Shown here: positions 29,936 to 34,380 of the stretch, piece after piece
How the letters are laid out: every line of letters starts with the position of its first letter
Numbering within the stretch: position 1 is the first letter of the stretch
Assembly: GCA_025056455.1 (NCBI GenBank)
Contig: JANWVY010000001.1
Coordinates: forward strand, 381,757 to 445,756
From: Bryobacteraceae bacterium
GTDB lineage: Bacteria; Acidobacteriota; Terriglobia; Bryobacterales; Bryobacteraceae
DNA: 64,000 bases
Direction of reading: 5' to 3'
Made by a program: the position numbers and the translations under genes
Notes under the pieces: model-generated
The model's database searches: none
Seen by the model: only the letters and a program-made list of their open reading frames with translations
What the model was told of the DNA's origin: nothing

Positions 29936-30844
29936 TTATCTCAACAAGCCTCGCACGCGCAGCCAGTCCGCCAGGCGTGCTGGCCAGGAAGACAAAGTGG
30001 CATCGGTCGCGGCCAGGCCAAGCCCGTGCCGCCCTTTTTCATAAATGTGCAGTTCCGCCGGGACGCCCGCCTTGCGCAAAGCCAGGTAAAACAAGACGCT
30101 GTTTTCGGGCGGTACACTCTGATCCTCGTGGGTGTGGAAGAGAAATGTGGGTGGAGTTCGAGCGCTTACCTGAAGCTCATTTGATAAAAGTCTGAGTTGT
30201 TGATCGTCGGGATTCTCTCCGAGCAAATGGCGCTTGGAGCCCGCGTGCGCATATTCGGTCACCAAAGAAATCACCGGATACGCCAAGATAGCGAAATCCG
30301 GTCGAGAACTGAAGCGTTCAACCGGGTCTGGCGACGCTGGATTCCCATCATCGAAGTGTGTCGCTGCCGTAGAGGCAAGATGACCTCCGGCTGAAAAACC
30401 CCAAATCCCGATTCGGTCGGGGGCTAGACCGAGCTGGCTGGCCTGCGAGCGCACCATCCGGATGGCGCGCTGCGCGTCCCGGAGCATGGCTGGGTGGCGG
30501 TAGCGGGGCCCGAGACGATACTTCAACACAAAGGCCGAAATGCCGAGCGAATTCAACCACTCGGCAATCTGGTTGCCTTCATGCTCTAGGGCCAGAGTCC
30601 GGTACCCTCCCCCCGGGCAGACGATGACGCCGGTAGCCACTTTCCGATCAGCAAGGAAATAGGTCAGCGAGGGCTTATCGATCTCCTCCTGGCCAACGGC
30701 GTCTGGGGCGCCTTGCGGATACAACAATTCTATGCGGGGTGGCATTCGATGGCCGGAATGCTGAGCCGGTAATAGCGCTGCCGCGGCTATCAGAATCATC
30801 CAGGGCGACCAGTGGGACATCCAGAAACGAATCATCGCCGCCAT
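29936..30844 (-). CDS. Exported alpha/beta-hydrolase, acetylesterase-like
   Basis: Serine esterase of the BD-FAE/acetyl-xylan-esterase-like group, 302 residues. The oxyanion loop GVIVCPGGGY, the nucleophile elbow GFSAGGH with Ser, an Asp in HTHEDQSVPPENS and a His in YEKGRHGLGLA form the expected triad. The start at 30844 has GGAGGG about 8 bp upstream; the hydrophobic stretch WMILIAAAALLPAQ (about 16-29) is a signal peptide or anchor. Substrates of related enzymes are acetylated sugars. It is divergent from the aspartoacylase-like gene at 30924. Confidence 0.83.
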   Translation of the reverse strand: MAAMIRFWMSHWSPWMILIAAAALLPAQHSGHRMPPRIELLYPQGAPDAVGQEEIDKPSLTYFLADRKVATGVIVCPGGGYRTLALEHEGNQIAEWLNSLGISAFVLKYRLGPRYRHPAMLRDAQRAIRMVRSQASQLGLAPDRIGIWGFSAGGHLASTAATHFDDGNPASPDPVERFSSRPDFAILAYPVISLVTEYAHAGSKRHLLGENPDDQQLRLLSNELQVSARTPPTFLFHTHEDQSVPPENSVLFYLALRKAGVPAELHIYEKGRHGLGLAATDATLSSWPARLADWLRVRGLLR

Positions 30845-30923
30845 TTTATCTTCCCTCCGTCTCTCACCGCGGACTCATTCGTCCAGCCACTTTCTCGTCG
30901 GCTGTCGCACAATGAGGAGTGTC

Positions 30924-31646
30924 ATGTTGCTCCGCCGCCAGTTCTTGGCAAGCCCTCTGCTCCTCGTTCCCTACCCGGCTTGGGCACGATCGCTCAAAGC
31001 GGGCCCAATTGAGTTCGAAGTGATCCGGCGCGGAAGGTCTTCGCGGCGCTATCTCCACATCCACGGCAACGAGAGCACAGCCGGCGAAGTCTTACGCAAG
31101 CACATGGAAACGCATTTAGGCGTCGCCTTTCTCATTCGCAATTCAGAGCGAAATATCCGGTTTGAGGGCGGCGAGCTGGACCCCAACCGAATGTTCTCGG
31201 AAGAGGGTGCGCAGCGTAACTTAAAACTGCTGAATGGATCTTGGAGCCCAGAGAAATTGAACAAAGCTCTCGTCCGGTTGCGCCAGCACCGCGAAAAAAT
31301 TTTGCGTCAAATTTTGCCCCCAGCCGGGGGATTACTCGTGGCTCTGCACAACAATTCGCGTGGCTATTCGGTGAAATCCGAACTGGCCGACAGCGACGAG
31401 GTGGCGCTGAATGATGAGTCCAACCCGCACGAATTTTTTCTCGCGACCCAGGTGCAAGATTTCCGAATTCTAGCGCGCTCGCCTTACAACGCGGTTCTGC
31501 AAAACCGGCGTCCGCAAGTCGATGACGGCTCGCTTTCCCGGCTGGCCTCGGCCCGGGCTGTCCGTTATGTCAATCTAGAGGCTGGGCTTGGACAGTTCGC
31601 ACGACAAAGGGAAATGCTAGATTGGCTGGAAAGGAACTTGCCATGA
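30924..31646 (+). CDS. Exported aspartoacylase/AstE-like (M14-type) putative zinc hydrolase
   Basis: Not a family I can name with certainty. From the ATG at 30924 (AGGAG 4 bp upstream) it has 240 residues with a Tat-like signal (LLRRQFLASPLLLVP). Four elements fit the succinylglutamate desuccinylase/aspartoacylase branch of zinc carboxypeptidases, in order: HGNE (47-50) as the H-x-x-E zinc motif, DPNRMF (86-91) as the substrate-binding D-x-N-R-x-F, LHNN (141-144) as the third zinc ligand, and NLEAG (Glu219) as catalytic base. Known members cut amide bonds in small N-acyl amino acids. The stop overlaps the DinB-like gene by 4 bp (ATGA). A conserved acidobacterial hypothetical is the fallback reading. 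Confidence 0.6.
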   Translation: MLLRRQFLASPLLLVPYPAWARSLKAGPIEFEVIRRGRSSRRYLHIHGNESTAGEVLRKHMETHLGVAFLIRNSERNIRFEGGELDPNRMFSEEGAQRNLKLLNGSWSPEKLNKALVRLRQHREKILRQILPPAGGLLVALHNNSRGYSVKSELADSDEVALNDESNPHEFFLATQVQDFRILARSPYNAVLQNRRPQVDDGSLSRLASARAVRYVNLEAGLGQFARQREMLDWLERNLP

Positions 31647-32257
31647 GGTTCATCGCGTGCTCGCTTGTGTGGTTGGGCGCCCTAGTTGCGCAATCTGGAC
31701 CCGTTCCCCTCACCCAGGGCGAACGAGATCGGGCGCTGAGTCACCTGCATGCTACGCGGAAAATGTTTCTGGATGCGGTTGCTGGGTTAACCCCAGCACA
31801 GTGGGAGTTCAAGCCTGCACCGGAAGTGTGGTCTATTGCCGAGGTGGCCGAGCACATAACCTTGAGCGAGGATATGTTGTTTGAAATCGCCACGCAACGG
31901 GCTTTGAAAGCGCCCACGGAACCTTTAAGCGACTTTGCCCCGCGAGGCTTCCGCGACGACGAAAAATTATTGGCGGCTGTCTTGGACCGTTCCACGAAGG
32001 TAAAGGCGCCCGAGGCTCTGACGCCAAGGCGCAGCTTTCCAACTCCAGCTGATCTGATTTCGGAGTTCAAAAGGCGCCGCGACCGGACCCTCGAATACGT
32101 GCGGACCACTGAGGCCGCGCTGCGCGCACACCGTTTTCCACATCCCGTTCTCGGTCCCCTGGACGCCTACCAGTGGTTGTTGCTCGTCTCGGCCCATTGC
32201 GAGCGCCACATCTTGCAATTGAACGAGGTGAAGCAGCATCCCGGTTTTCCCAAATAG
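31643..32257 (+). CDS. Exported DinB-like four-helix protein
   Basis: 204 residues from the ATG at 31643. DinB/YfiT-type proteins are metal-binding four-helix bundles, normally cytoplasmic, some acting as thiol transferases. Here a signal peptide (MRFIACSLVWLGALVAQ) precedes the bundle. Metal ligands are likely H71 (VAEHITLSED), H185 and H189 (SAHCERHILQL), the usual three-His arrangement. The hallmark WSIAEVAEHI is also present. Co-translation with the upstream aspartoacylase-like gene (ATGA) and a 8-bp gap to the ankyrin gene make a three-gene unit of exported proteins. Confidence 0.78.
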   Translation: MRFIACSLVWLGALVAQSGPVPLTQGERDRALSHLHATRKMFLDAVAGLTPAQWEFKPAPEVWSIAEVAEHITLSEDMLFEIATQRALKAPTEPLSDFAPRGFRDDEKLLAAVLDRSTKVKAPEALTPRRSFPTPADLISEFKRRRDRTLEYVRTTEAALRAHRFPHPVLGPLDAYQWLLLVSAHCERHILQLNEVKQHPGFPK

Positions 32258-32265
32258 CGCCTGGT

Positions 32266-33441
32266 ATGCGTGTGGTTGCTTTGCTGGCGCTTTTTCGCTT
32301 GGTCCTTCTGTCGGGAGATCTCCACTCGGCCGTGCGGGCGGGGGATCGCAAACAAGTGGAAGCCTTGCTCGCTTCGGGTCAAGCCGTCAACGAGCCGGAT
32401 GCCCTGGGCGGTACAGCCCTGCATGAAGCCTGCTGGGCAGGAGACGTCGAGATGGTGAAGCTGTTGATTCGCTACGGAGCCAATCCCAATGCCAGGCACC
32501 GCGAGGCTGGCAGCACACCTTTGCATTACGCCATCATCACCAATCAGAAAAGCATCGTAGAACTGTTGCTGGCTAGCGGAGCCGATTTCAAGGCAACCGA
32601 CCAGTCCGGCTCCACGCCACTGCACCTGGCGGCGAATCGCGGCTACCTAGAAATCGCCGAGTTGCTGTTAGCCAAGGGCAGCAATCCCAACCAGCTTGAT
32701 GCCTCAAAGGTGTCTCCGCTCGAGGAAGCGGCCTGGAAGGGGCAGACGGACATGGTGAAGTTGTTACTGGCCCGCGGCGCAAAAGCCACTCAGGCGGCGC
32801 TGGAGATGGCCATTCAAAAGGGGCATACAGCGGTAGTGCAGTTGCTGTTTGAGGCGGGCATCACTCTCCAGCCCGCAGCAGCTGCGGAACAATTAGAGAC
32901 GGCAATCCGCTACCGGCAGAAAGAAACCGCCTCGTTGTTGATGCGCCGGGGCGCAAAACTCAAAGCCGAAGCTCTGCACCGGGCGCTCAAGAATGCTGTC
33001 TTACGGGGAGAGACCGAAATGGTGGACCTACTGCTGGCTCAAGATCGCAACCGTCAAGCCGAACTAGCAAACTCGGTCCTGGGCGATGCGGCGCTGAAGG
33101 GCCACCGCGAGGTTGTGGCCCTCTTGCTGGAACGCGGGGCAAACGCTCGCGCCCCGCTGGCCAGCGGTTTGTTCCCGCTCCACGAAGCAGCCCTGGGCGG
33201 CAGCTCGCCAGTTGTTGACTTGCTGCTCAATCAGGGCGCTGATGTGAATGCCGTCGATTCTCAGTCAGGGAATACAGCTTTGCATCTTGCCGCCAGTTAT
33301 GGCCGCCACTCGGTCGTTGTGCTCTTGCTCGAACGCGGCGCTGAAACTCAGCGCAAGAACAAAGCCGGAAAAACACCTTTCGATCTCGCGCAAGAAAACG
33401 AGCAGCGGGAAATTGTCGAGCTGTTCCAGGCCCTCAAGTAA
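32266..33441 (+). CDS. Exported ankyrin-repeat protein
   Basis: 391 residues from the ATG at 32266; the open frame extends upstream to 32173 but overlaps the DinB-like gene. A signal peptide (MRVVALLALFRLVLLSG) is followed by about eleven ankyrin repeats filling the rest of the protein, for example GGTALHEACWAGDVEMVKLL, GSTPLHLAANRGYLEIAELL and GNTALHLAASYGRHSVVVLL. Middle repeats (about 170-260) are degenerate. There is no other domain, so it is a pure protein-binding scaffold, probably periplasmic or secreted. It ends 9 bp before the convergent hydroxylase gene. Confidence 0.85.
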   Translation: MRVVALLALFRLVLLSGDLHSAVRAGDRKQVEALLASGQAVNEPDALGGTALHEACWAGDVEMVKLLIRYGANPNARHREAGSTPLHYAIITNQKSIVELLLASGADFKATDQSGSTPLHLAANRGYLEIAELLLAKGSNPNQLDASKVSPLEEAAWKGQTDMVKLLLARGAKATQAALEMAIQKGHTAVVQLLFEAGITLQPAAAAEQLETAIRYRQKETASLLMRRGAKLKAEALHRALKNAVLRGETEMVDLLLAQDRNRQAELANSVLGDAALKGHREVVALLLERGANARAPLASGLFPLHEAALGGSSPVVDLLLNQGADVNAVDSQSGNTALHLAASYGRHSVVVLLLERGAETQRKNKAGKTPFDLAQENEQREIVELFQALK

Positions 33442-33450
33442 AACCGAGCG

Positions 33451-34380
33451 TTAATTCTCAAACATGCGGCGCAATCCAAGCCACTGTTGCGCCCAAAATC
33501 CCTCACCGTAATCGCGCCCGCGGAGCTGATCGGCAATGCCCGTGGGCCGGTAGGTGGGGTCGAAGTTCGCCGTTCCGAAGATCACGTCCCAGAAAGCGAA
33601 GACCTGCGCAAAGTTGCTTCCGTAGCGGCCCTGATCCATGGCGTGATGCGTGCGATGAAAGCGGGGGCTGACGAGAATCCGGTCACCGAGAGGTCCGAAA
33701 CTCAACCGCACGTTGGCATGCGAGAGAGCTTCTAAAGCGCCGCTCACCAACGTCACGGTGAGAAATTGTACAGGTGGTACGCCAAGAGCCAGTCCGATAA
33801 CGGCCCGGAACAAGGCTGAGATCATTTGGTCAAGCAGGTGCTCGCGATCATCGGTCCAAAACGTCATCTGGCGCTGGCTGTGGTGCACGGCGTGAAGCGC
33901 CCACCAAATTCGGAAGCGGTGCTGCCAGCGGTGCCGCCAGTAATCTGCAAAGTCTAAGATCAGCAGGTAGAGTAAGGCGCTTACGACTGGCGCTGTTTGC
34001 AAAGGGGGCACCAGATCTTCGAGATTCGGCGGGATCACTCCTGCGAGGCGCAAGTTCGCGTTGACCCAGTCCACCGCCGGCGTCAGAATGAAAAAAAAGA
34101 AGAGGGGAAACACGCCTAGTTTTGCCAGCAGCGCATAGACAAAGTCGCGATTGGCTGCTTTGCGATCCGCCCAAGGCTCGGCCGGGGCAATCTGTTCGAG
34201 GGGGCGGAAGAGAGCCCACAAAATAACGAGTTCAAGGGCACCGATGAGAAACAGCTCCGTGCCCTCAAACGCCTGCTCGGCCCAGGCCATGAGGCCCGCC
34301 CGGTAGAGCACGGGCTGTACCAAGGTTTCAAACACCCAGGCATGGAGCGCGGCAAAGCTGGAACTCAGAAACTCCCACAT
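33451..34380 (-). CDS. Sterol desaturase / fatty-acid hydroxylase family membrane enzyme
   Basis: Integral membrane di-iron oxygenase of 309 residues. The His-box pattern is complete: HRWQH (H-x3-H), HAVHHS (H-x2-H-H) and HRTHH (H-x2-H-H), with additional His residues in between (DREHLLDQ, LSHANVRL). About four membrane segments are visible, for example FLIGALELVILWALF and FFFFILTPAV. Family members hydroxylate or desaturate lipids, sterols or carotenoids; the substrate here is unknown. It is the last gene of a four-gene minus-strand run and follows the polysaccharide deacetylase by 15 bp. Confidence 0.87.
   Translation of the reverse strand: MWEFLSSSFAALHAWVFETLVQPVLYRAGLMAWAEQAFEGTELFLIGALELVILWALFRPLEQIAPAEPWADRKAANRDFVYALLAKLGVFPLFFFFILTPAVDWVNANLRLAGVIPPNLEDLVPPLQTAPVVSALLYLLILDFADYWRHRWQHRFRIWWALHAVHHSQRQMTFWTDDREHLLDQMISALFRAVIGLALGVPPVQFLTVTLVSGALEALSHANVRLSFGPLGDRILVSPRFHRTHHAMDQGRYGSNFAQVFAFWDVIFGTANFDPTYRPTGIADQLRGRDYGEGFWAQQWLGLRRMFEN

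Follow-up and report, generated by a model that had tools for sequence, protein, structure and literature searches.

The catalytic domain of AstE and aspartoacylase (PF24827, PF04952), cytoplasmic enzymes, belongs to a non-classical branch of MEROPS family M14; HxxE...H and NR-type residues are common to this superfamily, and an HN at the third-ligand histidine is also seen in aspartoacylase. The DinB_2 and YfiT-BstA (S-transferase-like) proteins form a second superfamily, represented by BstA with its triad H67/H160/H164 (PMC5815605). The locus described here contains three consecutive genes, A, B and C, of which A is compared with the first of these groups, B with the second and C with the ankyrin-repeat proteins. 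We consider it probable that A encodes a small, single-domain, Tat-exported zinc amidohydrolase or exopeptidase-like enzyme, distant kin of AstE and aspartoacylase, and that B and C are separately conserved.

The three genes are encoded on one strand of the window, the whole 64,000-nucleotide stretch of DNA that was analyzed (Table 1). For A, an alternative in-frame ATG is present at 30912; the start at 30924 is favored because of the GAGGAG that precedes it. An ATGA at 31643-31646 contains the start codon of B and overlaps the stop codon of A, and an 8-bp gap (32258-32265) separates B from C; the coordinates thus confirm both junctions as they had been read in an earlier note on this DNA. An AAGGA-like sequence precedes the ATG of B, and the sequence before the start of C contains no obvious ribosome site. 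Since the upstream neighbor is divergent and the downstream neighbor convergent, A, B and C form an isolated same-strand unit. They are probably cotranscribed in this genome; a scan for promoters and terminators found nothing above chance. The downstream hydroxylase resembles OlsE, an ornithine lipid hydroxylase, only distantly: its 85 bits fall far short of the NCBIfam cut-off of 475.

Table 1. Positions in the window of the three genes, their predicted functional sites and their neighbors, with the loci at which A adjoins a divergent dehydrogenase gene
Feature	Position	Strand	Remark
Upstream neighbor	29936-30844		PaeX-like esterase, divergent
Probable Shine-Dalgarno sequence of A, GAGGAG	30914-30919	+	4 nt before ATG 30924
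Gene A	30924-31646	+	AstE/aspartoacylase-like probable zinc amidohydrolase, compact, 240 aa, twin-arginine N terminus
Putative Tat-type signal of A, MLLRRQFLASPLLLVPYPAWA	30924-30986	+	cleavage suggested after AWA, from reading the sequence
HGNE of A, residues 47-50	31062-31073	+	predicted zinc ligands H47, E50
DPNRMF of A, residues 86-91	31179-31196	+	predicted substrate-carboxylate site N88-R89, with R76
LHNN of A, residues 141-144	31344-31355	+	predicted third zinc ligand H142
NLEAG of A, residues 217-221	31572-31586	+	predicted general base E219
Gene B	31643-32257	+	DinB_2-family four-helix protein of 204 aa, probably exported
DinB metal triad of B	H71 31853-31855; H185 32195-32197; H189 32207-32209	+	invariant in homologues
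Gene C	32266-33441	+	ankyrin-repeat protein, 391 aa, hydrophobic N terminus
Downstream neighbor	33451-34380	-	OlsE-like fatty-acid hydroxylase, convergent
A with divergent dehydrogenase			L058, L059, L063, L065, L068, L070-L072
A with divergent dehydrogenase, continued			L074, L076, L079, L081, L082, L086, L088, L092

All four motifs that the earlier note had quoted for A (HGNE, DPNRMF, LHNN and NLEAG) are there, in the quoted order. Their conservation in 58 homologues, drawn from roughly half the genomes sampled for the window's bacterial family, and in more distant homologues shows that they are not a chance occurrence. In an alignment of 63 members, R76, D86, P87, R89, G95, N189, L192, D201, G202, S203, E219 and Q228 are invariant; H47, E50, N88, H142, N143 and N144 are each present in 62 of the 63. 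A single protein (L093:4950-5687) accounts for the exceptions at H47, E50 and H142: all three positions are replaced, while R76 and E219 are kept. Judged by its residues, this homologue is likely a pseudoenzyme. Because it has lost all three predicted metal ligands together, H47, E50 and H142 behave as one unit; such a pattern would be expected if a metal site were lost, and it is an independent hint that the ligands may work as one.

The N termini of A, B and C are all hydrophobic and signal-like, a pattern common to their homologues and in agreement with the earlier reading. For A, that reading had gone as far as a signal-bearing protein; its signal would be of the twin-arginine (Tat) type. 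A twin-arginine lies near the N terminus in 60/60 members from the same bacterial family, mostly as (S/T/N)RRxFL; the starts of members were chosen partly by the RR motif, the presence of RR being independent of that choice. The protein in the window has LRRQFLAS and a stretch of 15 uncharged residues ending in AWA, and its genome encodes a TatC (204.8 bits). These features point to export by Tat rather than Sec, as far as sequence can tell. Two homologues (L002 and L003) may be lipoproteins. Across the members, the uncharged stretch after RRx has a median of 12 residues and in some is as short as 6 to 8 (L081, L086, L035 and L073). Many leaders are thus very short, so some members may be nonexported or tethered.

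The same short stretches, together with the cytoplasmic location of AstE and aspartoacylase, speak for another reading, in which A is AstE/aspartoacylase-like and acts in the cytoplasm or at the inner-membrane face, with RRxFL as a conserved basic and hydrophobic N terminus or a decayed Tat signal. We regard this as unlikely, given the match of (S/T/N)-RR-x-F-L to the Tat consensus in most members, the longer stretch with its terminal AWA in the window's protein and the signal-like N terminus of a distant Legionella homologue, which has no RR.

The kinship of A was assessed by profile-profile comparison. A profile of 63 A sequences aligned with 14 acidobacterial AstE_AspA_cat proteins in hhalign with an E-value of 2.5e-5, a score of 43.7 and a probability of 75%; 100 column shuffles reached 21.4 at most, and reversing the profile gave 14.2. 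The alignment spans most of the domain with the catalytic positions in register, pairing HGNE with HGDE, DPNR with DLNR, HNN with the third-ligand His and LEAG with EAG. A thus shares with the AstE/aspartoacylase domain the order and identity of HxxE, R, D-x-N-R-x-F, third-ligand His and E-x-G. Unlike that domain, it has no Pfam match, LHNN in place of DLH, an exported-type N terminus, conserved motifs of its own (DDGSLS and SPYN-V-LQ) and a mature protein of ∼220 residues with no evident C-terminal domain.

A Pfam scan of A returned no family, an NCBIfam scan a chance-level match only and a PDB search with the A sequence no match; among 61 homologues, the Pfam scan gave one subthreshold AstE_AspA_cat (PF24827) match (E 0.0095), and PF04952 has no match in the window's genome. 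Laccases, which came up as PDB relatives in a profile search, were set aside as chance matches. The AlphaFold2 model of A, built from a two-sequence alignment, is poor (pLDDT 39.8), and the case for a zinc fold therefore rests on the profile evidence. The AstE/aspartoacylase resemblance proposed in the earlier note is borne out at the level of profiles, with the amendment that no catalogued AstE/AspA family includes A. Outside the window, the same genome also has a gene for an AstE_AspA_cat protein of the conventional kind (L104, G000:C11:754995-755546; 99 bits).

The HxxE...H and NR-type residues, being common to the superfamily, would also suit an N-formylglutamate amidohydrolase (FGase) or a carboxypeptidase of the classical M14 type. 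Such an assignment is improbable: against Peptidase_M14, the A profile scores 22.7, which is null level (shuffle maximum 21.7), whereas AstE_AspA itself detects M14 in the identical set-up (56.1). On this score, classical M14 was rejected as the nearest relative; the comparison with FGase was underpowered, as it used two FGase sequences only and its positive control failed. Based on the AstE_AspA_cat match and the null-level Peptidase_M14 score, we place A near AstE/AspA, outside every catalogued family.

Within the M14 superfamily, A would be a distant relative of the AstE/aspartoacylase branch, single-domain and zinc-dependent. Its one zinc ion would have H47, E50 and H142 as ligands; R76 and N88-R89 would anchor the substrate by its free carboxylate, either that of an N-acyl-amino acid or that of the terminal residue in a short peptide, and E219 would activate a water molecule for cleavage of the amide. 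With its twin-arginine leader, the protein would reach the envelope by the Tat route, already folded and with its metal bound. Our guess for the substrate is an N-acylated amino acid or a cell-wall or other short peptide. B, as a DinB-fold metalloprotein, and C, as an ankyrin protein, would be separately conserved exported proteins with no obligatory function shared with A. A more far-reaching proposal is that compact M14-like amidohydrolases such as A make up a new subfamily, exported by Tat folded and with zinc, some of them tethered because their leader is unusually short. Their substrates would be N-acyl-amino acids or peptide fragments within the envelope in these acidobacteria, and in this genus an exported DinB metalloprotein would accompany them; in this full form, the proposal is speculative.

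Homologues of A occur in 103 of 200 genomes of the window's bacterial family (106 at E ≤ 0.1, less three weak matches that were discarded). Searches of the wider phylum, both with single proteins and with a profile, turned up a few distant relatives only, and viral contigs and phages contained none. Two distant relatives are encoded on plasmids of Legionella adelaidensis (L162:3061-3705) and Piscirickettsia salmonis (L163:2857-3639), both annotated as hypothetical proteins. Roughly every second genome sampled from an abundant family of soil bacteria thus carries a protein family unnamed in Pfam or NCBIfam, with a catalytic pattern clear enough for direct testing. If the proposed function is correct, AstE/aspartoacylase-type chemistry would extend to a single-domain enzyme exported by Tat. 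The main interest of the locus is this uncatalogued, probably Tat-exported family; the operon itself would matter little, as its arrangement is not conserved.

B passes the Pfam DinB_2 threshold (PF12867, 79.1 bits; cut-off 24.8), one of six DinB_2 matches in the genome. Like BstA (PMC5815605), it has a histidine triad with an HxxxH, and this triad (H71/H185/H189) is intact in 30/30 homologues. It differs from the DinB_2 and YfiT-BstA superfamily in its probable signal peptide: the N terminus is hydrophobic (MRFIACSLVWLGALVAQS), and most homologues from the same bacterial family (∼27 of 30) have a signal-like one too; the starts of the remaining ∼3 may have been wrongly chosen. The earlier note had considered an exported DinB-like protein unusual; these counts reverse that view, since signal-like N termini are the norm in this subfamily and exported DinB-fold proteins are therefore usual in this bacterial family. 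At E ≤ 1e-20, 118 of the 150 genomes from the family have a relative of B. The paper on OCTIN, considered for exported DinB-like proteins, deals with FGE-domain proteins and is unrelated.

C gives a strong repeat match along its entire length (Pfam Ank_2, 231 bits, six Ank_2 stretches). What sets it apart from the usual ankyrin-repeat proteins is a hydrophobic N terminus (MRVVALLALFRLVLLSG), also present in orthologues, which would suggest export; its signal is the weakest of the three, owing to an internal Arg and the lack of a good cleavage site. Relatives at E ≤ 1e-40 occur in 40 of 61 sampled genomes; the best 20 cover most of the length of C, and 19 of these have the hydrophobic N terminus.

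Co-occurrence of the three genes, which the earlier note had put forward as a check, was followed in some 60 fetched A loci. The complete trio was found in none of the relatives, all three genes adjoining in the window alone. Adjacency of A and B is confined to the window's genus, where it is seen in the window and in five of seven relatives with an intact fetched locus (L035, L036, L038, L043 and L064); L035 and L036 retain the ATGA overlap, and in the other three the two genes stand 15 to 34 bp apart. L042 and L047, of the same genus, have A without B. In G436, which belongs to the same genus and has A next to B, the C orthologue lies on a different contig, and in other genera the homologues of A, B and C lie at separate loci, those of B with no A nearby. 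The operon is therefore a local grouping of three genes that are each conserved separately, and a conserved envelope module is not supported. That A, B and C nevertheless form such a module, as the earlier note had suggested, with the ankyrin protein as scaffold and a pathway shared by the amidohydrolase and the exported DinB protein, is very improbable: the single strand with its tight junctions, the recurrence of the A-B pair in six genomes of the genus (window included) and the signal-like N termini of all three are outweighed by the adjacency of C in the window alone, the genus relatives with A and no B, and the independent occurrence of A and B in other genera.

A different neighbor recurs beside A more than B or C does: a Glu/Leu/Phe/Val dehydrogenase gene lies divergent from A at 16 loci in 9 genera (Table 1), a weak hint of amino-acid chemistry for A. 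The two starts are mostly ∼90 bp apart or less, and a large mutS-like gene often follows behind the dehydrogenase. Directly 3' of A, a gene for a major intrinsic protein (aquaporin-like) is present at five loci (L053, L055, L070, L072 and L092).
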